The notes below the pieces were generated by a model. It saw only the letters and a program-made list of their open reading frames with translations, was not told the DNA's origin and searched no databases. The translations under genes and the position numbers were made by a program. DNA of 21,484 nucleotides from Proteromonas lacertae (taxonomy: Eukaryota; Sar; Bigyra; Opalinata; Proteromonadidae): positions 1 to 21,484 of the forward strand of contig NGBS01000968.1 in the NCBI GenBank assembly GCA_002245135.1, in the 5' to 3' direction. Of this stretch, positions 3,179 through 20,307 are shown in pieces. Within the stretch, counting starts at the first letter, position 1, and every line of letters begins with the position of its first letter.

Positions 3179-6176
3179 CTATTTAACTTTTGGTTTAATC
3201 AAGTCTAAACTACCAGGTATGTACTGCCATATGCATTTATGTCCTTTCCATATATTAATGGGATGAAGGTAACAAACACTACAAATCTTCCTTTTGCACA
3301 AAGAAACATGAAGAGGCTTCATGCATATATAACTAGCAGGACAACGTTTACATTGATTACAAAATCCTTCTTCTATCCAGTTCATTGGACAATCACCACT
3401 AAAATCAACGATTCTATGCATTTGAGACGAACCATTTTTGTGAATCTCTTCAGAACATTTAATACAAAATGAATCACCACAATTAGCACAAGATTTCTTT
3501 GCAAACTCTTTCTTACAAGATCCACACATGATACAATCCTTTGGAATATCAAATGATATCTTTGGACCAGAATAATTATAAAAATAATCAACATCTAATA
3601 AAACAACATAAAAAAAAATAATAATATACTCAAAACATTATCATGTCTTTGATACCATTTATTTCTATAATTACAATCAAATACTCTACCAAATGTAAGT
3701 GGTTTAATATGTCTATATTTTCTAGTCTTTGTGTTGTAGTATTCTATATTCTTTGTTTCTTCATTGTAATCTTTGAATATGTATTGTCTCAATTCTTCTA
3801 CCACTTTCTTTCTAACTACATAACCTCTCCATCTATTCATAATATAAACAATGATAATTATTATACATTTTCTGAAGAGCAGTACATAACCATATTTTCA
3901 TTTGTCTTTGTTTAAATATCGCTGTATTTTTAAACAACTTCTCTTCATCAGTTAGTTCTTTTCTATTCTTTTCAGCTTGTTCAAATTCTTCTCTTAATTC
4001 TTTCAATTTTATTGCCATTTGTTTGTTAATATAATCATCTGTTGCTTGGGTTATTGCATTTTCTAATTTCACTTTCTTTCCTCTCGCTGTTAAATCTTCA
4101 AAGAGAATATTTGCATTATTATTGATTAACGTTTGAACTTCCTTTTGTTTCATTAAATCATACTATAAATAATAAAAATAAATAGAAATTTATACTCCTT
4201 CAAGATTTTGGGCTTTCAATAAATCCAAAATTTCCATTTTTACTTCCTGTAATGGTTTCTTTGTACTTTGTAACCATTCATTATATCTATTCTTATCTTC
4301 TGTTTGTTGTTTCAATTTGAACTCTTCCATTTCTCTATCCAATTCTTCTCTTTCTTTCTTTATTCTCTCTCTTCTTGCTGGCAATTTTTCAGTAAAATAT
4401 TTCTCCCACTTTTCTTCTAATTCTCTTTGCTTTGCTTCTTCTTCACGTTTTAATTGAATATCAAACTTTGCTTGAAATAGTTTTCTTCTATCAGCAAGTG
4501 TTTTAGCTTGTTGTTTTTCTTCTTTCCATTTTGCTAAATCTGCACTATTTGTACCAATACCTCTTTTTGATTGAACTATCCTTTTAGCTTTAATACATCT
4601 CCAAAAACACTATTAAAGATAGAATTATGAATATATATATATATATATATATAAATACTTGTATTGTTAAAATTGCATTATTCTTTCTAATTTCTTTCTG
4701 TTTTTGTAATTTAATAGCATTTTCTTTAAACAAAGACTGCCAATGTTGAATTTCCATCTTCTTATAATGTATTCGAGCAATAAACATTCTTAAATATTTC
4801 TCTATAATAATTGCTGCTTTTAATCTTCTTCTATTTATTTCCTTAAATCGAACTCTTGCTATATAACCACGAAATACTGCTTGAATTCGAGTTGACATTA
4901 TAATCATTCTCCTTTTATCAATATCAGTTTTTCTACCATAATAATAACCTCTAAATATCTTTTCTATTTTTACAGCATAGTAATATTTGACTACTTCAGA
5001 TCTCCATTTATTCAATATCAATAATCGATTGTATTTACATATATTCTTATAAGCCCTTCTTAATTTCCTTCTGTTTTTAACAATATACTTCCACCTTCCT
5101 ATACATTCATGAATTATCATTTTTCTTTGGATTTCAAAGTTAATATTCAATTCTTTCAATTCTTTATATCTTTTTCTCGCATTTATTAGATATGATTGAA
5201 AGGGTCTTGGTAATAATGATTCTATTGATGAAATAAACTTGGTATCAATTTCTTTACCAATTATTCTTTCTTCAAATTCTTCAGTTTTCATTAATGTTTG
5301 AAATAATCTCATATTTATCTTCTTTCTTCCTCTGAATGTCATTGGATTTACTTTATCTAATGTATCATATATAAAATCTTCTAAAGTTTCAAGTTGGTAT
5401 GTGTTTGAAGCAAAAACAGTAAAGATTTTGATTAAGTCGAAATTGTTTATATGATTCTTACATACTTCATTCCTTACTGGTAATATTCCTTCACTTGCAT
5501 ATATGACGAAGAATTTATCAAATAATTGATTTATATTTACATTTGGATTCTCCAATAAACTAAATATTACAAATAAAAAATAGTAAAAATACTATAACAT
5601 GCAAATCAACATTCTAAAATCCATTGTAGGTAGATTGTAATAATTGAAACTAGTATAAAGTTTAGGCAACATATCAGTAATCTCAGGAGATAAATTTCTA
5701 TATACATTCTGAGTTACACATATAAATTTAACTAAATTAATTTCACCATCTGGTGCTATATGATATAATCTTGTATAGTAATGTTGCCATTTTGTGCCTC
5801 TTCGACCTCCAACAGCAATGAACTATTCAAATAATAATAAAGGAATATATATACAAATTTATTTAAACAATCCCATCTACTATGATTCATCTGAAAGTTC
5901 ATCATTTGCTTTTGTTTCTTTTCATATACTCTCTGGAAATGATTATCTATTTTCATCACATTTGTAGTATAAGCTTTTTCATTTGTTTTCTTAAGATTTT
6001 TTAAACTATAGATATGATAATAATGATATTAAATACTTAGTTTCACTAGATATCCATGTCCCAACTCCACTACTACCTAATCTATTAATTGCACCTCTAT
6101 CAATAGGCTTTTTAGTGTTAATAGTAGGTAGAGAATATGAATGAGGCATGTTTAATTTAGGTACAGTGTTGCTCAT
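3179..6176 (-). CDS. IQ-motif, coiled-coil, WW-like and B-box zinc-finger protein (cilium/cytoskeleton type)
   Basis: The start is the ATG at 6176 (MSNTVPKLNMPHSYS). Seven introns (6006-6036, 5823-5854, 5560-5598, 4610-4658, 4163-4195, 3833-3866, 3595-3629) give an exact 914-residue frame. IQ-like calmodulin-binding helices lie near residues 369-388 (VKIEKIFRGYYYGRK), 395-414 (TRIQAVFRGYIARVRF), 422-441, 469-488 (TIQCFWRCIKAKR) and 704-725 (LQKIWRGYVVRKK). A charged Glu/Lys coiled coil fills about 490-690. A WW-like strand set follows (YYNTKTRKYRHIKP, about 740-760), then a Cys/His-rich tail. That tail starts CGSC..CANC..CIKC with paired His (about 800-840) and has a second Cys cluster (about 850-895), as in B-boxes. 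Multi-IQ proteins of this size are common in flagella and basal bodies, so an axonemal or centrosomal scaffold is likely. I recognise no named orthologue. Confidence 0.85.
4631..4653. repeat. (AT)n microsatellite inside an intron
   Basis: An uninterrupted AT dinucleotide run of about 23 bp lies within the 49-nt intron 4610-4658. It is probably length-variable, and that intron is one of the longer ones here. Confidence 0.9.
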
Positions 6177-6346
6177 TTACTTAATTACAAAGAAAAAAAG
6201 AAAAAGAAAATTCTGAAACTGAATATGTTTGACGTAATTCAAACCTATTTTTATTTTTATGAATTTGTAATTATTCAGAAATATAATCAAATAAAAGCAT
6301 TTGATCTGAATATAAAATCAACAAGTTATACATAATTAAATGCAAT

Positions 6347-7815
6347 TTATTTAAATTCAGATGTAATCCAAGAATAAAACAATTGCTTTTGACATTCATT
6401 CTTAAACCCACCTGGTTTGAATGGAGCTTTGATAATTTCACTGAATCCTTCAGATAATTCTGGCTTCTTATATCCTTTAAAGAATGTTCTTAAAGCAACC
6501 ATCGGAACATGTCTATTTTCAACCCCATAAGGATCAACAACTCTAAATTGACTTAAATGGAAAGATATTTCCAGAGTTCTTTCCATATCAACACATCTAA
6601 CAGGAATTTTGAATGATTTGGCTATATTAATCCATTCAGCTCTATTCTATACAACATAGATAGAATAATATAATATACTGCAATATCCTTATTAGTATTA
6701 TCAATAATAACAGATTTACCACTAGAAAGTGCAGCTTTACATGCATTTATACATTTACTCTTTGTCTTTAAAGTATCTTGATTAATTCTTTCATAATTCT
6801 TAAATATATTAACAACTGTACTTTTACCAGCAGCAGGAGGTCCAACTAAAACAACAACTTCCTGTTTATCGCTTAATTTAATATCAGGAACAACGATTGA
6901 TGGATCATCAAATGTAAGTGGATCTGTAATCTTATTATTCCACATTCCTGGATCTAAATCAATCTTATTCTTACTCTCTTCAAAGAATGCATCTGGAGTA
7001 ATAAAATTACATCCAATATTCTGTGCAAAGAGATAATCTCCTGGACTAAAATCCTTCTTTCTTTTTCCAACTATACAAATAAAAACATTATTATAATATA
7101 ATATACATGCATCTCTACCAGCTGCATCACCACAGTAGAAACTCTTTTCAATATCAACAGGAACATCAGAATGAATAAAATTACAATAGAATTGAAACAT
7201 TCCAACACAAGGTTTTCTATAAATACTATGCTTTGATACACATGCTAAAATAACTAATGGAAATGGTAATAATTTTAAGAACTTCTCAAATCTCTTCTCC
7301 ATTTGATCAACTGTTACTTTACCTGCTGGAACACCCCCTTGGTTAGATATAATAGCTATTGAATATCCTTTATCATTCAATTCTTTCATTTTATCTATAA
7401 CATGTGGAAAACTGATTTTATCTGTATTATAATCAAATAAGGTTGAATCAAAATCAAAGCCATAGAATACTGATGATTTTAAATTGCATCCAGGAGGATA
7501 GTAATAGTATAAATCATCAATTTCATGCCAATTAGTGTCTGGAACAAGAGGTCCACTTAGTTTTATATTTGGAATTACATTCTCAGATACTCTTGGCTTT
7601 GCTGAACCAACTATCCAATTCTTTTTACATGCATTAGTTGAATCTGTTGTAGATTGTGGTTCACTTGCAGCTGTTTCAACTTTAGAAGCTTTTTCTGGTG
7701 GATTTGAAGATTTATCATCTTTTTCTTCTTCAGAAAGCTTTCTCTTCTGTGGAATGCTTTCATCTTTCTCTTCTTTCTTATCAACAGCCTTCTTTGAACT
7801 TTTTTTACCTGCCAT
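6347..7815 (-). CDS. PNKP: bifunctional polynucleotide 3'-phosphatase / 5'-kinase
   Basis: PNKP restores ligatable DNA ends: it removes 3'-phosphate and phosphorylates 5'-OH in single-strand and double-strand break repair. Introns at 7071-7106 and 6647-6678 give 466 residues from the ATG at 7815. The first 65 residues are Lys/Glu/Ser-rich, likely nuclear-targeting, and there is no FHA domain. The HAD phosphatase follows: the nucleophile motif is DFDST (D121, D123), where most relatives have DxDGT, then ISNQGG (about 156-161), YRKP and CGDAAGR (228-234). The P-loop kinase has Walker A GPPAAGKS (313-320) and the IIDNTN element. The end (HVPMVALRTFFKGYKKPEL) is typical of the family. The first intron is 36 nt with no in-frame stop, so unspliced mRNA would still be readable. 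The gene lies 170 bp downstream of its neighbour's start on the same strand. Confidence 0.95.
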
Positions 7816-9189: not shown

Positions 9190-9198
9190 TAAATACAT
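9190..9198. repeat. left target-site duplication TAAATACAT
   Basis: Identical to 13271-13279, immediately outside the proposed element ends. The length of 9 bp fits MULE integration. Confidence 0.75.
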
Positions 9199-9857
9199 GA
9201 AAAGATGTAAATTTAGCACATGTTCAATCGATTGAACATGGGGTTTATAGAGGGTTTTCGTCTATTCTAATTAGATATTCTTATGCATCTTTGTATTTCT
9301 TATTTATAAAAATAGTCTCAGCTTCATATGTAAACTACATGCTAATTCAATTAATTTGATTTCGAATATTTCACTCAGTAATAGCTTCAAAAAATGCTAT
9401 AAATTATGTTTAGACAGGATCTCCGTTTTATTTCTTCATATAAAAACTATTGAATGAGAAATCTTTAAAAATAAAAATTGAGCACAAGTTTTGATTTGAA
9501 AATTTTTCAACATAGATTTAAATTTTGAGCATGGGGCATATAAGAAGTAAATTAATAAAATAAACATTACAATCAATTGCATATTTCACAAAAAATATTA
9601 TGAGTGACTAAAATAGTATTTTCATAACTTCATATAATCAAATTATTTAATTTCTTATTATTTTAAAACTCTGATTGAAATTATTTAATCAACAAAAATT
9701 ATATGTATCAATTCTATATTTATATTAATTTACATCAGTAGACTCAATATTAATAGCTTTTTTATTTAAATTCAAATCAAACATAGAAACGAATATAAAT
9801 TTTTATTAGTTTTCTTTTCTTAATTTCTTTTGTAGTTGCTACATGTATAGCATAATA
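9199..9857 (+). repeat. left terminal inverted repeat (659 bp)
   Basis: It pairs with the reverse complement of 12612-13270 almost base for base from AGCAC at 9215 to TAGCATAATA at 9857. In the part I compared closely (around 9800) I saw one substitution. The outer 16 bp are poorly matched. The transposase ATG (9843) lies inside this repeat, so the repeat probably supplies the promoter and 5' UTR. Confidence 0.92.
9219..9240. promoter_or_regulatory. subterminal 22-bp perfect palindrome, candidate transposase-binding site
   Basis: The core TGTTCAATCGATTGAACA is its own reverse complement and is extended by CA/TG on both sides to 22 bp. It starts 20 bp inside the element. The right TIR keeps the 18-bp core at 13231-13248. 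A dimer-binding site is an inference from symmetry and position. Confidence 0.6.
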
Positions 9858-11530
9858 AATGATGATACTATCGACATACCTATCGGTGTTAATAGTAGTA
9901 GCCACAGCATAATTGACGGTAGGATGAAGAATTTGTCCAAGTTATGTAAGCGTTACCCTCCGTTTGAGAAAATAGCTCAAATAGACTACTCTGTATTTAG
10001 TAAGAAATTTACAAAGCTAGAGGATGTATACTATACAGTATATGTCTTCTGCTTTCAATATGGTTTGAAAGTTAAGCCAATACACGGGACATTAGCTAGC
10101 TGTTCGACTCTAACATTCAAATTTAAATGTTGTAAAGCACAAATTAAGTGCTACTACTCGAAAACAATATAGTTTTGAAAGTGATAGATCATAATCATAC
10201 AATTCAAATAAAAAAAGTATTCAATATTAACACAATTATGGAAAAAGAAATTATTGATTTAATTGAAGCAACTAATTGTAATAGTAAACAAGTTATTGAT
10301 CTCTTAAATAAAAAATATTCTATAACAAAGAATGAAGAAAATCAAATAAGATCAATAATTAGATCAAAAAGCAAAGAAAAGAATGATCATCTTAGTGGAA
10401 AAACTAAATTTTTCGAACAAATTATCAATTATGAATATCATTGTAATTATGAGACTATTTTAGTTATACTGGATAGAAACACACTTAATAAGTACTCAAC
10501 TATTTTATGTGATGGAACCTTCTCTATTTTTATGGATAGCTCGCAATTATATATATATTCACAAGTTTCTCCTAAACTCTTTCTTCTTGTAGCTTTCGCA
10601 ATTACAGCAAATAGAAATAGTACAACATATGAATATATTTACAGATTTATCAACAAAAACAAAAATATAACTGCTGTAATTCACGATAGAGAACAAGCTG
10701 TTATGTGTGTTCTGAAGAAATTAAGAATTAATTTAGTAAGTGATTCATTTCATATTCTGATTAATATTAAAAATAATGCTTTAAAAAATATTGTAAAAAC
10801 ATATCTTAAAAACCCAAATGAAGTTGATCTAAATAATATTGATAAAAAGTATAAAGATTTTATAATTAAGTATGATTTGGACAATTTCGGAGCTTTTGGA
10901 ACACATAGTACCAGTTGTGTTAAATCTTTAAACAATAAGATAAAGAATATGCTGCATCACAAACGCAGCAGATATGATGTTGTGCTGAATACATTAATAC
11001 AAATTCACAAACAGCAAAAAGCCAAAATAATTGATGAAGTCAAAAAAAGAACAATGGTTAATAATATTGGATCATTATTATGGAATGAGTGTTCATCAAC
11101 ATTATACTCAGAAATGGAGAATATGATTAATAATAATAACTCAAATTCAAATTGTTATTTAACAAAAATAAATGGAAAAATTAATTGCAGCTGTAATAAA
11201 TTAAGTTATACTGGAATACCATGCAGCCATATTTTAAAATATATAATGGAAAATAATATTAAAATAGATACAGTAATTGCTAATGAATGCTTCAAAGATT
11301 ATTTTATTATTAATGAAAAAATAACAAATTATAATATCAATTTTAACTTTATTAATGATAATGAAAATAATAGTATTACAAAAGTAAATAATAATGAAAC
11401 AAAAGAATATGAAAATGATAATAGTAGTACATTTATAGAGACTTTTAATGTTAAAATAGTAAAAGGACATAAAATGGAAAAAAGAATAGATGTTCATGGC
11501 AATATTAGTAATAAATTAAATAAATTTTAA
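9843..11530 (+). CDS. MULE-family transposase with SWIM zinc finger (frame-broken copy)
   Basis: The transposase cuts and re-inserts the element by a DDE/RNase H-fold mechanism. The first segment (9843-10172) begins in the TIR and holds a FAR1/FLYWCH-like zinc region (KFKCCKAQIKCYYSK). The second frame (from about 10162) continues it with IVLKVIDHNHTI, completing a C..C..HNH pattern. One A missing at 10161-10164 would account for the break; an intron ending AATATAG at 10172 is the alternative, but it removes a Cys pair. The catalytic core shows ILCDGTFS (first Asp, codon 10511-10513), VIHDREQAV (second Asp) and SFHILINIKN. The helix that usually reads ESxN shows VKSLNN (Lys codon 10922-10924). 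The SWIM finger CSC..CSH sits near 11190-11230. The end is Asn/Glu-rich. Clear MULE assignment; activity of this copy is doubtful. Confidence 0.88.
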
Positions 11531-11562
11531 TATTTAAGAAAGAATTACGCTCAAGTTAGTTT

Positions 11563-11979
11563 ATGAAAATTGTTAATATATTAAATATTAAAAATATTAC
11601 TGATTGCTGTTTAATTCAAACATTTAATACAATTAATATTTATAAATATCAATTTATCCCAATACTTTATCACAATCATTACAGCTTATTATGTAATTTC
11701 AATAACAAATTAACTCATTATGATACAATTGGTTTACATTTGAATGATGAATATATTTATAGTAAGTTTAATGTTAAAAATGTTAAATGTATAAAATTAA
11801 AACAAAAATATGGTTTTACTTGTGGCTATTTTATATTATATATAATATTATTAATTAGTAATAATAAACAGATTGTGGAATTAGATGATGATGAAATGTT
11901 GGAAGATTTAAAATTAAATATTCAACAAAAATACAATGAAAATCCAGAGAGAGTGATTAATATAATTGAACAAAATTAA
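11563..11979 (+). CDS. Ulp1/SENP-like (C48) cysteine protease carried by the transposon
   Basis: C48 proteases cleave SUMO or related ubiquitin-like tails, or act like adenain on polyproteins. The 138-residue frame has the full catalytic set in order: His39 in NHYSLLC, Asp54 in HYDTIG, Gln81 and Cys87 in QKYGFTCGYF. The Gln-to-Cys spacing of six is as in yeast Ulp1. It is much smaller than cellular Ulp1, with nothing N-terminal to the catalytic region. It starts 32 bp after the transposase stop, on the same strand, so it is probably expressed with it or from a shared transcript. ULP1-bearing MULEs are known in plants, where the domain is usually long or fused; here it is a compact separate gene. 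Its frame is intact, unlike the transposase. Confidence 0.85.
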   Translation: MKIVNILNIKNITDCCLIQTFNTINIYKYQFIPILYHNHYSLLCNFNNKLTHYDTIGLHLNDEYIYSKFNVKNVKCIKLKQKYGFTCGYFILYIILLISNNKQIVELDDDEMLEDLKLNIQQKYNENPERVINIIEQN

Positions 11980-12611
11980 TATTAATAAATAATATTATTA
12001 TATTATTATTTTTATTATTATTTTTGTTATATTTATAATTTTTAATTAAAAAATAAACAAAATAGAAATATTATTTATTATACTTTTTATATATTAATTC
12101 AAAACAAAATTCAATATATAAATCAATTTTAATTAAATATTTACTTAATTAAATCTATTAAAATATTATTATCTATAATCAATTTTAATTTCTTTATAAT
12201 TTCATTTTTATCATCTTTTATTTATCAAAATGTTTTAAATGTTTTAATTATTTCTTTTTTCTATTATCAACATTTATATCATCATTTGATTTCATATTAT
12301 ACTCTTATTTGTAACATATTCTAATCTCTTCATCTTCTTTTAACATATTCAAACTTATATGTATTATCCATACCTACTGATCTGATGAATTTAAAAGGAA
12401 AGATAATACATATATGCAATTTTTGTGAAATTATCTCTTCAACTTAATACCATAACTACAATCTTTCATACTAATTTATGGATTAATAAATCTAAACTTT
12501 CTAAAGGAATAATAAAAATTATAGTACAATATGATTCTACCATCTCTGACGATTTATTCTTTCATCTACACTTTTATATAATAGACAAGTAATATATTAA
12601 AAATAAAATGC
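11980..12611. other. internal transposon DNA without a clear gene
   Basis: Very AT-rich. The minus strand between about 12300 and 12600 has scattered short open stretches (for example MDNTYKFEYVKRR and MKDCSYGIKLKR). These could be remains of an antisense gene, but no frame exceeds a few tens of codons. No repeat or RNA gene is seen. Confidence 0.4.
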
Positions 12612-13270
12612 TATTATGCTATACATGTAGCAACTACAAAAGAAATTAAGAAAAGAAAACTAATAAAAAATTATATTCGTTTCTATGTTTGATTTGAATT
12701 TAAATAAAAAAGCTATTAATATTGAGTCTACTGATGTAAATTAATATAAATATAGAATTGATACATATAATTTTTGTTGATTAAATAATTTCAATCAGAG
12801 TTTTAAAATAATAAGAAATTAAATAATTTGATTATATGAAGTTATGAAAATACTATTTTAGTCACTCATAATATTTTTTGTGAAATATGCAATTGATTGT
12901 AATGTTTATTTTATTAATTTACTTCTTATATGCCCCATGCTCAAAATTTAAATCTATGTTGAAAAATTTTCAAATCAAAACTTGTGCTCAATTTTTATTT
13001 TTAAAGATTTCTCATTCAATAGTTTTTATATGAAGAAATAAAACGGAGATCCTGTCTAAACATAATTTATAGCATTTTTTGAAGCTATTACTGAGTGAAA
13101 TATTCGAAATCAAATTAATTGAATTAGCATGTAGTTTACATATGAAGCTGAGACTATTTTTATAAATAAGAAATACAAAGATGCATAAGAATATCTAATT
13201 AGAATAGACGAAAACCCTCTATAAACCCCATGTTCAATCGATTGAACACGTGCTCAAATGTTAACTACCC
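12612..13270 (-). repeat. right terminal inverted repeat (659 bp)
   Basis: Inverted copy of 9199-9857. It therefore carries the same promoter-like sequence and the same ATG context pointing inward on the minus strand. That ATG opens only a nine-codon frame here. Confidence 0.92.
13231..13248. promoter_or_regulatory. subterminal 18-bp palindrome in the right TIR
   Basis: TGTTCAATCGATTGAACA, the counterpart of the left palindrome. Here the outer bases are CA..CG, so the perfect symmetry stops at 18 bp. Confidence 0.6.
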
Positions 13271-13279
13271 TAAATACAT
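13271..13279. repeat. right target-site duplication TAAATACAT
   Basis: Identical to 9190-9198. Neither copy can be extended by a further matching base on either side. Confidence 0.75.
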
Positions 13280-13612: not shown

Positions 13613-15212
13613 TCAACTTTCATTTTCTTCTTCTTTCTCTCCATCATTTATTGTCGTTAATTCAGTTGTATAATTATCAGTTTTCATGTCTAATATTCCT
13701 AAATCTTCATTCTCTTCTTCAGAACGTGTATATTTTTCGACTTTTAATCTTTCATCAACTTCACATGGACTGAATATCCAACTATTAGCTAATGGATCTT
13801 TTACTATCAAACTAAAATCTCTCTTTCCATCTTTGCATAGTTTTAACTCATTTATAAATTTTCAAATTCAACTTTTCTTTCTTTTGCAGCTGAATCTCCA
13901 TCAAAATAATAATTCAATCCCATTCCAATTTTCTCGATTATTACTGCTAATACACCTTCAACTGAAGTATACATTCCACCCATTGTTCCAGGTTCCATAC
14001 TGAAATCTAATTCTGGTATTTCTATTTCAGCTGAATCACTTTTGATAAAATCTCGAGTTAAATCTTCATGACTTGTTTCTTTTGTCACTTTCAATGTGAT
14101 TATTTCACCTTCACTTGGAATTGCACCTCCTCCTTTTATTTCATTACATTTATATCCACAATGATCACATTGAAATGACATTATTATTATTTCTTTGAAA
14201 TTAGGTATATCTGTTACACACATCTTCGTTGAACCTTTCTTACTACAAGCATAGCAATTTGTTTCAAATTCCATCACTTCTTTCTCAGTATTTGTACTAC
14301 TACTATCAAAACGGATCTTTTCTTCTTTTATCTTTAAACTATCATAATCACTTACATTTTCATCTTTATTCTCTTCTCCATTCTCATTGGCTATATCATC
14401 TGGTAAAGCAACTCCTAAAGCTATTTGTTGTTCTTTTGTTCGGAAATATGTATTCATTTCTAATCTTGGATCACTGTGTGGAGCATATGGATTCTCTATA
14501 AAAGACTGACCAGCTGGATCATCTAATATAAAATGGAATGGCATTCCTTCTGGAGTTATTAATCTAGTAAATAAATAAATAAACAAACAAAAAATACTTT
14601 GATAGATTTTGAATAAATAAATCTATTTGAGCTGTTACTGTTGGATCGATCTTTCTTCGTTCTTCTTGACCCATTAATATCGCATCTCGAGCAGACATTA
14701 TTATACCTTCTATTGTTGATAATACTCCTTGTTGAGTTATGGAAGGAATTTCAAAATCTAACTCAGGAATTCGAACTACACCAGAATTGGACTTTATTAC
14801 TTGTCGATTCAAATCCTATTCACAAACATACATTAAATAAATTACAAATCATACTTTTTCATTTGAAACTGTTAAAGTGTATAAACAACCTTTTTCTGAT
14901 ATTTCACTTCCACTTTGAACTTCACTATTCTTAAAACCACAATGACCACCTATTCAATTTCAGTATTATTTTTCATTTTATTATATAATTTTCATAAAAT
15001 ATACATTCAAAAGCCATCAAGATTATATCTCGAAAAAAGGGGATTTTGGTTAATAATATCTTCGTCACACCATTCTTCTCACAGTTTGGACATAAACTTT
15101 CAAGACCTAAACAAAATTTATTACTAATTATCAATATACTTGTCACACCATTATCATCTGTATCTACTCCATTCGTACATTCACCTATTGTCGGATATAC
15201 TTCTTCTGACAT
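13613..15212 (-). CDS. ZPR1: zinc-finger protein ZPR1 (one-base frame break near the C-terminus)
   Basis: ZPR1 binds eEF1A and acts in its folding and in growth signalling, moving between cytosol and nucleus. The start is the ATG at 15212 ([11 protein letters not shown]). Introns are 15107-15139, 14950-15004, 14816-14854 and 14564-14597. The family's tandem architecture is complete: zinc finger 1 (LCPNC..FECGHCG), beta domain 1 ([18 protein letters not shown]), the [15 protein letters not shown] linker, zinc finger 2 (NCYACSK..FQCDHCG) and beta domain 2 ([22 protein letters not shown]). After EFE the frame stops at TAA, but the expected [25 protein letters not shown] continues in another frame. 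One A missing in the run at 13859-13862 explains it and gives 479 residues. A 26-nt GTTGAA..GAG intron also restores frame but discards a conserved segment. Confidence 0.93.
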
Positions 15213-15293: not shown

Positions 15294-16138
15294 ATGTATC
15301 CCAAGATTCAAGTTCCAGTTTCACAACCAACACAAATAACATCGTATTATATTATGCATATATATGATGTAGAAGTCCTGTTTGTATGGCTGGAGGTGTT
15401 TTAGCTGTAAAATACTCCGATGGTGTAATGATGGCATGTGATACCTTAAGTATAAAATATTGCTGTATTTATTGATAATAAATAGCAACGTATGGTTCAA
15501 TGAAGATGTTCAAAAACACCAAAAGATTGATGTCAGTAGGTAAACACACTCTAGTTGGTGCCAGCGGTGATATGAGTGATTTTCAATTTGTGAAAGATGA
15601 GATAGAAAAGAAATTGTATATTTTTATATTTATATGTTATTTATATTTATTGTTTGAAATAGAATAGCAGAATATTGTTTAAATGATAAAGAAGAAATAA
15701 AAGCTTCCAAATTGAATTCCTATTTTTCTACTTTACAATACCGAAGAAGAAACAAAGGTGATTTTATTTGTAATAGTTTATTATTTGCTGGAATAGAGAA
15801 TGCCAAACCCTATTTAGGAATAAGCGATTATTTAGGCAGTGAATACACTGATAATTTCATTTGTACAGGATTTTGGTCTCATTTAGCCACTCCTTTACTT
15901 CGAAATCAATGGCATGAGAATATAAGTGAAGGTGAATGTAAAGGTTTGATAGAAGAATGTATGAAAATCGCAACATATCGTCATGATCGTGCTTTAAATC
16001 GAGTATTTTTATTAAGTTATATATTTTTATTAGTTTATTCTTGGTAAAGTAAGTTCAGATGGTGTAGTTATAAGTGATCCATTCTCAGTTAAAGGTAATT
16101 GGGATTATAAAGAATTTATTTTGGACTATTCACTTTAA
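15294..16138 (+). CDS. PSMB4: 20S proteasome subunit beta type-4 (beta-7)
   Basis: A structural, non-catalytic subunit of the 20S core beta ring. The start is the ATG at 15294 (MYPKIQVPVSQPTQITS). Introns at 15344-15372, 15450-15485, 15616-15662 and 16003-16033 give 233 residues, close to the mature family length, with a short propeptide. Recognisable blocks are GGVLAVKYSDGVMMACDTL, TYGSMKMFKNTKRLMSVG, LVGASGDMSDFQFVK, YRRRNKGDFICNSLLFAG, YLGSEYTDNFICTGFWSHLA and the ending NWDYKEFILDYSL. The active-site Thr of catalytic beta subunits is absent, as expected for beta-7. Its 3' end converges on the WD40/FN3 gene with 95 bp between. Confidence 0.93.
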
Positions 16139-16233: not shown

Positions 16234-19168
16234 TTAATAATTTGACATTATATGTTCAATTGTCATAGGAACATTAATTAAATCAGTTTTAGTCCCACTT
16301 TCACTATCACCAACACAATTATAAGCATATACACAAAACTCATACGTATTTCCTTCTTTTACATCATAAAAAGTATGTTGAGTTTTATTCCCAACTTCAA
16401 TCATGTTATCAAACTCACCCAATTCATTAATTCTCTCAGTAATTTTATACCCCAAAATAGCAGCACCACCATCAAAGGGAACTCCCCATTCTATTGATAT
16501 ATATTCAGAGGTAAGTGCAACAACATTAACAAAAGGCGGACAAACTGGTTCAGTTGGAGCTAATGTAGATGTAATTAACGAAAATGAACTATAATTACTA
16601 ATACCAAGGCTATTTTCAGCTGCAATTCTTGAATTATATTCTTGGTCACTTCGTAAATCGTTGATGAAATATTCATAATAACTATTCTCTATTAATTCCA
16701 ATGTGTTTGGATCAATTGTAATACTAAATACTCTACTGTCTTTATCAGCATAATATAATTCAAAATGATACTTTGTTATCTTTGAACCATTATCATTATC
16801 AGGTGGAAATATTCGTGCGACTAACGAGATACTGGTTGGTTTGATAAGTGATGGTGGAGGTGGAACATTTGGAATTGAAATTGTTGCACAAATTGGTCCT
16901 AAAATATCACTCCATTCACCCCAACCTTCTTGATTCTTAGCGCAAACACTGAATTGATGATATTCACCAGGTTTTAAGTGTTTAAATGTATAATGAAAAT
17001 CATCTGATTTGAGTAATACTTCATTATTATCCATTTTTAATTTATAATTGATCAAAATACCTCCATTATCAAATGGTGGAATGATTTCTAATTCTATTGA
17101 ATCTCTTGTGATATTTACTACTCTTGGAGTTGGACATTTTGCAGGAACTATATTTATATAAATAATTGCATAAATATACTGTCTGCAGCAGTCATTGTAG
17201 TTAAAGAGGGAACACTAAAATCAGCTAAACCTAAGGAATTCTCAGCACTTACTCTAAATTGATATGGCAAACCTGGTTTGAGATTTTCTACTTTTATACA
17301 ACAAATTGAACCTCTTCCAATTTTCTTTAATTTCTGATTAATCATTTTCAATTCTAACTCTTCTTGTTCATCTTCCATTTCATTCTTGATTTCTTCTATT
17401 GTTTTAGTAGGGTAAACTAATGCTCTAATATTCAATGATTTATAATCAAATTGTGTTGATTTTCTTATCTATATAAAACAATAAATAACAATATAATATT
17501 TATACTTTTTCTCTCAATTGTTCATAAACAACACCTTCATGAATAGCAGTATCATGATCAATCTTCACATCTTTAATAGATCCCCATTCTCTATTACCAC
17601 CTCCTCGTACTTGCACTACAAAGTTCAAAATATCATTACCCATTGAAGATGGACAATGGAATTTGATAGTCATTGCTCTTGGTAAGATTTTAACTACTTC
17701 TGGTTGATCACATGTATCAGGTACTATTATAATAAAAACAATTATATATAAAAAATACTGGATGGTGCTGTTTTAATTGAATCAGATTCTTCACTAAATT
17801 CACTTGAACATTCTGTATTAACAGCTGCTACTTTAAATCTATAGTACTCTCCTGGTATTAAATCTTTGACTGGAATTGTTACATAAGCTTCAGGATCTAT
17901 AATAATTAATTTATATTATAAATAAAAATAAATATACTTGCAATTTTAATAGTAACTTCATTATCATATTTACTTTGATTCTCTAATCTATATTGAACAC
18001 GATAGTGAGTAATAGCAGCACCATTAGCAGGCGGAGCTCTAAAGTTAACTTGTACAGCTGCATTTCTATTCATAATATCAGTAATTGGATTTGTAATCAC
18101 AGGTTTATGAGGGATACCTGGTCCTTGAGGAATGACTTGCCAAATACCAACACTTTTATCATAACAACCAGTTGCTAATCTTCCACTATACTGATTATAA
18201 CAACAATCCATTATGGAATCTTTATGTCCATGATATTCTAAACGTTTAGTACCACTTCGAACACTCCATAATGTAAGAATACCACTTGTACCTGCTGAGA
18301 CTATTTGATTACCATCATCATAAAATTTACAGCAATTAATACATTCTCCATGACAATACATAGTACGAATTAACCATCCACTTTCTACATGCCATAGTTT
18401 GATAGTTCCATCACCACTTGCACTTGCTAATATCTTATCATCTGGTGAGAATTCTAAACTAGTAATCCAAGAATAATGAGACTATATAAAGAATAATTAA
18501 AATTATATAAAATATACACATCTAACTTCATTTGGAATTGATTGTTCAAATGTTCTGATTAATCCACCAGTTTCCATTGGATCTAATTCCTCTACAATTC
18601 TAATCTTACTAAATACTTCATTACCAATTGATTTACCTTCTTCTTCAGCCATTTCTAAAGCCATTTGCTTTGCTTCTTCAATTAATCGATCAATATCTTC
18701 TTGAGATGGTACAACCTTTCTTAACAAACTAATTCCTGCTTCTTCTACTTCTTTTGCATGTTGTTCTATTGATTTCTGTACTGTCTCTTCAACTTGTTTC
18801 CTCAATTGAGCTTTACCTTCTGAAGAATTCAAGTAATTAGCAGTTTCATTTCTCAACTTCTCACCATTCTGTTTAATAATATTTTCTCTCAATTTATCTC
18901 TCTGATGTTCCACAATATCACAATAACCACTATCACCAGCTCTAAGATTGCATCCACCGTGATACTGACAATGAAATGTCTCAGCTTGACCTGGAGGTAA
19001 GAATTGATCAATATCACCATGACCAGAAACACCTGTCTTTTCATATTCCTCAGGTAAAACAGACCAAAGTTTGATTGTCAAATCAGATGTACTACCTGCA
19101 CTAGCTATATAGTAACAATCATTACTAAATGTTACAGATGTCACACCATCTGTATGACCACTATATTA

Positions 19169-19202
<34 letters not shown>

Positions 19203-20307
19203 TACACATATGTTCTTATTAATTTGCCTGTTATTGCATCCCACAATTTTACCGTTTTATCTTCAGAACTACTGGCTATAAAATAACCATCTGGTGATGC
19301 TGCTACTGAATATACAATATCTTTATGATCTGTCAATGTCATTGTTTCTCTTCTACGTTTTAAATCCCATACTCTTACAGTATGTTAAACTTATAATTAA
19401 AGAAATACAAAAAATATATATGACAAAAATGATATATCATTGGAACAACTAACAATTCTTCCTTCTACTGGTGGCTCAGGTTCTTTATAATCTTCATCTA
19501 ATTCCTCTAATAATGAGTTCTGTAATATGCTAGGTTTCTCTTCTTCTATCCCTGATGATGTTTTGGGAAATTCTTCTGGTTGATTCTGTTGTTCCTCAGG
19601 AATTCCACCTAAACTAGAACGACTAGTGTTTTTTCTAGTTAATTTTCTAATCACATTTCTCATTGAATAATGATTTTCTATCTCATGTAAGGATGTTTTC
19701 TTTATTATGAAGGATGAATAATTTTGATTAACTGTTAGGTATAAATTTTACATCAGATATTGATTTTGTATGTCCTGATGCTTCTATGTCATCTTGAGGT
19801 AAAGTTAATAATTCATTTCCTGAAGAAGAAGACCAAATTCTGATGGTTTTATCTTCTGAACATGATACAATTAATGTTCCATTATAATTCATATCTACTC
19901 CTGATATACGACCTACATGACCATAGCATAGTCTTACTAAAGTAGCAGAAGATTTATGATGTTTTAGAGAAGTAAGCTTTCCATACCTAAAATGCAATCC
20001 ATCTTCCATTTGTTCAGCTAATATATCCTGCATACGCATTTCTTTAAATGCTCTTTCTTCCTAAAACAATAACAGAAATTGTGATACCTTTTTATCATTT
20101 TCTATTCTAAGTAACCTTAATGTATTTCTTGTTCTAGTCTCAAGTTCTGTTGCAGATTTATCTTCTATTTCCATCAATTTAGTTTCTTTCATTCGAATTC
20201 TTTCCTCTCTAGCCTCCAAAACTTTTTTACCCTTTTTCAATAACCTCATCTCGAGCTTTTTCTTGCTTCTTAGTATCTATTTTGGGTGTTGTTGGTAACG
20301 ATGTCAT
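16234..20307 (-). CDS. WD40 propeller with coiled-coil insert, fused to five fibronectin type III domains
   Basis: The start is the ATG at 20307 (MTSLPTTPKIDTKKQEKA). Introns are 20214-20244, 20061-20087, 19678-19732, 19374-19424, 19161-19205, 18482-18517, 17897-17937, 17724-17758, 17469-17505 and 17148-17179. Together they give 1227 residues in frame. A charged helix (about 15-90) leads into seven WD repeats (for example EDKTIRIW, SEDKTVKLWD, SGDGTIKLW, TSGILTLW). A Pro/Glu linker (about 175-230) interrupts the propeller early. A Cys/His patch plus an E/K-rich coiled coil (about 345-510) sits between repeats 4 and 5. Five FN3 domains follow (about 650-1227), each with the LKPGxxYxFxVxAxN type strand; the second has an acidic insert. 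No signal peptide or membrane segment, so it is intracellular. Likely a cytoskeletal or ciliary scaffold; no orthologue recognised. Two introns (20214-20244, 19374-19424) have atypical sites. Confidence 0.88.
19174..19202. repeat. (TAA)n microsatellite inside an intron
   Basis: Trinucleotide run of about 29 bp filling most of the 45-nt intron 19161-19205 of the WD40/FN3 gene. Confidence 0.9.

Follow-up and report, generated by a model that had tools for sequence, protein, structure and literature searches.

A frame-broken Mutator-like element in Proteromonas lacertae and its relatives with a transposase fused to an Ulp1-type protease

The 21,484-nucleotide window analyzed here (contig NGBS01000968.1, hereafter C835, in the 50.2-Mb assembly GCA_002245135.1 of the opalinate Proteromonas lacertae) carries a Mutator-like element (MULE) at positions 9199-13270. 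We interpret this element as a decayed, likely non-autonomous copy, whose uninterrupted relatives encode a single protein composed of a transposase, a SWIM zinc finger, and a C-terminal Ulp1/SENP-type protease predicted to remove SUMO or NEDD8 at the element ends. We assign this interpretation a probability of about 0.6. It is built on features that were observed directly, namely the termini with their target-site duplications (TSDs), the fusion within one open reading frame (ORF) in the relatives, the frame breaks, the catalytic residues, and a protease-free sister MULE.

Results

Termini, target sites, and copies of the element

A first-pass annotation of the window had proposed long terminal inverted repeats (TIRs) and a 9-bp TSD, and these were borne out. 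Perfect copies of TAAATACAT flank the element at 9190-9198 and 13271-13279; the probability of a 9-bp match by chance at a single fixed position pair is about 2.5e-5, based on the base composition. The left TIR (9199-9857, forward strand), which contains transposase codons 1-5, and the right TIR (12612-13270, reverse strand) show 3 mismatches in an alignment of 646 bases (arms 9212-9857 and 12612-13257; the repeat tool prints 100%), while the outermost 13 bp pair imperfectly.

Contig C866 carries, in two copies, a further insertion of this family with the same termini and a different TSD (GTTTTTCAT). Over about 4.1 kb, the C866 insertion is separated from the window copy by 22 mismatches and 5 indels. 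C866 is largely an inverted duplication with halves 99.6% identical over about 6.7 kb, representing either a true palindrome or an assembly fold-back. Perfect 9-bp TSDs were found at four of the eight places examined, including C962 (CTAAATTAT) and a fused relative on C953 (CAAATGGCC) in addition to the window and C866. No TSD was found at C73, C907, C364, or C462, where the boundaries are approximate and, in C462, the right end is truncated. The TIR arms of the relatives range from 615 bp to more than 2 kb, and a genome search with the TIR as the query yielded 32 matches, many of them short. In the fused elements on C312 and C633, which are 99.9% identical over 6.7 kb, the TIRs consist mostly of a tandem 121-bp repeat, with arms exceeding 1.6 kb (L056:1-1641 and 5142-6733; L057).

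A broken transposase with a substituted catalytic position

Two forward-strand ORFs, of 109 amino acids (aa; 9843-10172) and 460 aa (10148-11530), are two frames of one transposase, with the break near the end of the first; the C866 copies retain a single 574-aa frame. Two Asp codons, at 10511-10513 and 10685-10687, are those that we take to be catalytic, an assignment supported by the alignment. At the presumptive third catalytic position (10922-10924), Lys replaces the Glu of the relatives. The motif search for this position gave 14 rows from 18 sources, which are not mutually independent: Glu occurs in 11, including the same-family C1012, and Lys in the window and both C866 copies. Because of the split frames and the Lys substitution, the element does not qualify as "complete", as it had been annotated, and the window copy is likely dead. 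The window and C866 copies share this Lys and the broken junction before the protease and yet occupy different sites, and thus were likely moved in trans by the protein of another copy.

The annotated SWIM finger was confirmed at 11168-11236 on the forward strand (residues 341-363; Pfam, 22.6 bits versus a cut-off of 19.6). SWIM fingers C-terminal to the catalytic domain are also found in C312, C665, C866, and the proteins P0001 and P0002. PF10551, the MULE DDE transposase domain, had no match in the window ORF, and its scores in the relatives C312 and C1104 (15.6 and 18.9 bits) were below the cut-off of 27.6.

The protease domain is in frame with the transposase in relatives

The Ulp1/C48-type protease domain is encoded by a 138-residue ORF (11563-11979, forward strand), which had been described as a stand-alone gene. 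The preceding junction (11516-11562) is a frame break within the conserved N-terminal part of this domain: the block FIxFxxEL....F, conserved in the relatives, lies upstream of the supposed protease ATG, beyond the break. In C462, a deletion copy of the same family, one 252-aa frame extends from the transposase C-terminus into the protease, including this block; the junctions of the window and C866 copies are one base different in length from that of C462. Single ORFs comprising the transposase, SWIM, and protease were found in C312, C633, and C953 (887 aa) and in C665 (764 aa); the domains are readable in each of these, and Pfam was run on C312 and C665. The same fused architecture is present in the 871-aa public-read protein P0002, and a linker or SWIM precedes the protease in the partial proteins P0006 and P0007.

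The C312 protease had 20 matches in the genome (from 38 candidates), and ten of them covered at least three quarters of the query. Six of these are in frame with a transposase (C953, C312, C633, C677, C665, and C462), and four are frame-broken (C835, C866 twice, and C1104 at a different spot). The ten are not independent, as C312 and C633 are near-identical and the C866 pair lies on one contig. With six protease domains as queries against 3375 candidates, two proteins were returned; both are of the transposase-associated kind, and no stand-alone relative was among them. The "stand-alone" description is not upheld, since the protease shares the transposase frame in C462, the C312-type and C665-type elements, and P0002. 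As judged from these sequences, a break in the reading frame most likely accounts for the separate protease gene in the window, and the proposed separate, undescribed two-gene lineage is not supported.

Residues and predicted activity of the protease

The four residues named in the annotation, His39 (11677-11679), Asp54 (11722-11724), Gln81 (11803-11805), and Cys87 (11821-11823), are present on the forward strand. Motifs for the catalytic His, Asp, Gln, and Cys occur in this order in 10 of the 11 protease sequences examined, with the window among them; the remaining one, from C73, ends before the Gln/Cys motif. The domain is assigned to C48 (Ulp1/SENP) by profile or fold. It shares the His-Asp-Gln-Cys residues, the Gln-Cys spacing of 6, and the fold with SENP, Ulp1, and NEDP1, but is compact and transposase-fused, and 12-19% identical to them. 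The P0006 model has helices at the conserved block FIxFxxEL....F, and in the model of the window fragment the first 22 residues are below 50 in predicted local distance difference test (pLDDT) score. The fused domain is predicted to deconjugate SUMO or NEDD8.

The C866 and C462 protease regions differ by 3 nonsynonymous and 5 synonymous changes (ratio of nonsynonymous to synonymous rates, dN/dS, 0.12; post hoc binomial, 0.005), and those of the window and C462 by 2 and 5. Two other comparisons weigh against this pattern: C312 and C1104 differ by 5 nonsynonymous versus 0 synonymous changes, and C312 and C953 show no change.

MULEs with and without the protease

The pairing of a MULE with an Ulp1-type protease, as annotated, is correct, and it recurs in several MULE subfamilies. 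All 17 genome matches of the window protease (from 21 candidates, all scored) are at MULE places, and a host-like C48 gene on C356 is not among them. These comparisons argue against a one-off capture and for a protease shared by several MULE subfamilies. The annotation had regarded copies lacking the protease as a sign of such a capture. Copies of this kind do exist, in sister subfamilies, alongside the several subfamilies that have the protease. Sister elements with 664-688-aa ORFs (C205, C168, and C58) match the transposase and not the protease (51 of 138 candidates scored). The stop codon in C205 (L067:181-183) lies so near the right TIR, with its inverted start codons at 371-430, that no room is left for a protease. 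A short (CCCTAA)n telomere-like run is found between this stop codon and the right TIR (L067, 184 to 371). No other sister copy appeared among the matches of the window and C312 proteases, and the longer P0007 match at C168 ends at residue 147, short of the His motif at 176.

Genomic context

Eukaryotic genes surround the element on C835, encoding a polynucleotide kinase 3'-phosphatase (6622-7815, reverse strand), ZPR1 (13852-14586, reverse), a proteasome subunit (15712-16047, forward), and WD40/fibronectin-III ORFs (16234-20039, reverse). Among the SUMO-pathway markers, zf-MIZ exceeded the cut-off at 3 of 7 places and UAE_UbL at 1 of 3. The SUMO gene itself was not established, because, among 19 Rad60-SLD matches, the best pair has a spacing resembling that of polyubiquitin.

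Peptidase_C48 has at least 150 matches genome-wide (150 of 218 candidates scored), many in 194-aa ORFs. DNA_pol_B_2 matches lie 6.8-7.4 kb from a C48 match at C610:7665-7883, C1083:14314-14532, C1115:14653-14841, and C1054:8668-8958. Based on these four shared contigs, the stand-alone C48 genes resemble proteases of Polinton/Maverick elements. A Polinton/Maverick identity for the window element was rejected: 9199-13270 has no long ORF beyond the transposase and protease, and C835 is absent from the DNA_pol_B_2 matches listed (91 of 260 candidates scored).

Discussion

Alternative explanations

The frame breaks could be indel errors of the assembly, with the real window copy fused as well. The C866 halves, which differ by 7 indels versus only 2 mismatches, point in this direction. 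However, three places spread over two contigs have a junction of identical length, and the run of bases at the junction is a short one. We regard assembly error as a possible but minority explanation. The natural product is fused under decay and assembly error alike, so that only the term "decayed" would be affected, and the Lys substitution stands.

An unlikely alternative is that the protease matures the fusion protein itself, in the manner of viral clan-CE proteases acting on polyproteins. The fused architecture would suit this role. The fold is also near those of the adenovirus, African swine fever virus, and poxvirus proteases, and one A3 member matches Pfam C57 (2.1e-5). Clan-CE proteases prefer glycine, but neither Gly-Gly nor Gly-X-Gly occurs in C312, C953, or P0002. 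C665 and C73 each contain a single Gly-Gly, at residue 114 in the N-terminal region before the catalytic domain, and none near the protease. Of the two roles suggested in the first-pass annotation, maturation of the element's own proteins is thus weakened by the scarcity of Gly-Gly, and deSUMOylation remains a prediction.

Slightly less probable still is a true two-gene MULE, in which the protease would be translated alone from 11563 or slightly upstream and act as a free enzyme in trans. The window and the two C866 copies have the same split, with the 138-codon frame and the catalytic residues kept, and the Arabidopsis KI-MULEs provide a precedent with the ULP domain reversed relative to the transposase gene (PMC2528002). 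However, the few differences between the window and C866 copies make them one lineage, and these split copies have Lys at the presumptive catalytic Glu. Furthermore, the split lies inside a conserved domain, and the protease is fused in C462 and in the uninterrupted C312, C633, C953, C665, and P0002. Programmed ribosomal frameshifting at the junction, yielding both the transposase and the fusion, would fit the equal junction lengths and intact protease frame of the window and C866, but is very improbable, as the standard slippery heptamer (with the junction read by eye) is absent from the transposase frame and the C312-type, C665-type, and P0002 proteins are plain fused ORFs.

Proposed mechanism and comparison with known systems

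In the decayed-fusion interpretation, the transposase of an uninterrupted relative would bind its own TIRs, where the fused protease may strip a ubiquitin-like modifier from the transposase, histones, or silencing factors. Such removal might raise expression or integration. The term sumoylation occurs 45 times in a paper on Sleeping Beauty transposition and a host factor (PMC10138897). More speculatively, these elements could constitute a protist MULE lineage with its own deSUMOylase or deNEDDylase, a deeply conserved, cis-acting counter-defence that would remove silencing or stability marks at the TIRs, at the very site of transposition, with broken copies riding in trans; we consider this extended scenario doubtful.

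The MULE-Ulp1 pairing is already known from plants and animals, and the first-pass annotation rightly pointed to plant MULEs with ULP1-like domains (PMC2836005, PMC2528002). Ulp1 is described in Mutator elements of hydra, lancelet, Arabidopsis, maize, rice, and melon, as well as in Ginger1, and a role in transposition has been proposed for the domain in the Ginger1 and Mutator transposases (PMC2836005). The hydra and lancelet elements, likened here by description, have the Ulp1 domain in a Mutator transposase, as in our case (PMC2836005). Ginger1 has a C-terminal Ulp1 or OTU domain on a Gypsy-integrase-like transposase, unlike the present elements (PMC2836005). Pfam detected no integrase in the window or relative ORFs at E-values up to 10, with only SWIM over its cut-off; GPY/F was not searched for.

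Plant Kaonashi/KIU, melon, rice, and grapevine MULEs likewise combine a transposase with a C48/ULP domain, and in grapevine the ULP occurs in both orientations and is patchy among families (PMC2528002). PMC6117577 cites a figure of at least 97 C48-bearing MULEs in Arabidopsis, and KIU is conserved in eudicots, with its function described as unknown (PMC13317346). As compared by description, the Kaonashi (KI) MULEs are non-TIR elements with a reversed ULP, whereas the elements here are bounded by long TIRs and have the protease fused in frame at the C-terminus.

Among protist MULEs, the TIRs of Entamoeba EMULE measure 187 bp and its TSD 9 bp (PMC2725143), and Trichomonas TvMULE lacks the long TIRs found here. 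The main text of PMC2725143 contains no word starting with ulp, protease, or peptidase, and its sole "C48" is a page number. Words starting with ulp, protease, peptidase, or sumo are absent from the main text of PMC6446971, a broad survey of MULEs. Those starting with ulp or sumo are missing from two VANC papers, and those starting with ulp, ulp1, or peptidase from an arthropod MULE survey. In a limited search of the open-licence literature, no title or abstract opening among the papers listed indicated an Ulp1-bearing MULE from a protist.

Fusion of an Ulp1-type domain has occurred repeatedly and with unrelated transposases, and the function of the domain in such transposons is described as unknown in a 2026 review (PMC13317346). 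In the P. lacertae genome, MULEs that have the fused protease occur beside related ones that lack it, and the role of the domain is therefore directly testable by comparison.
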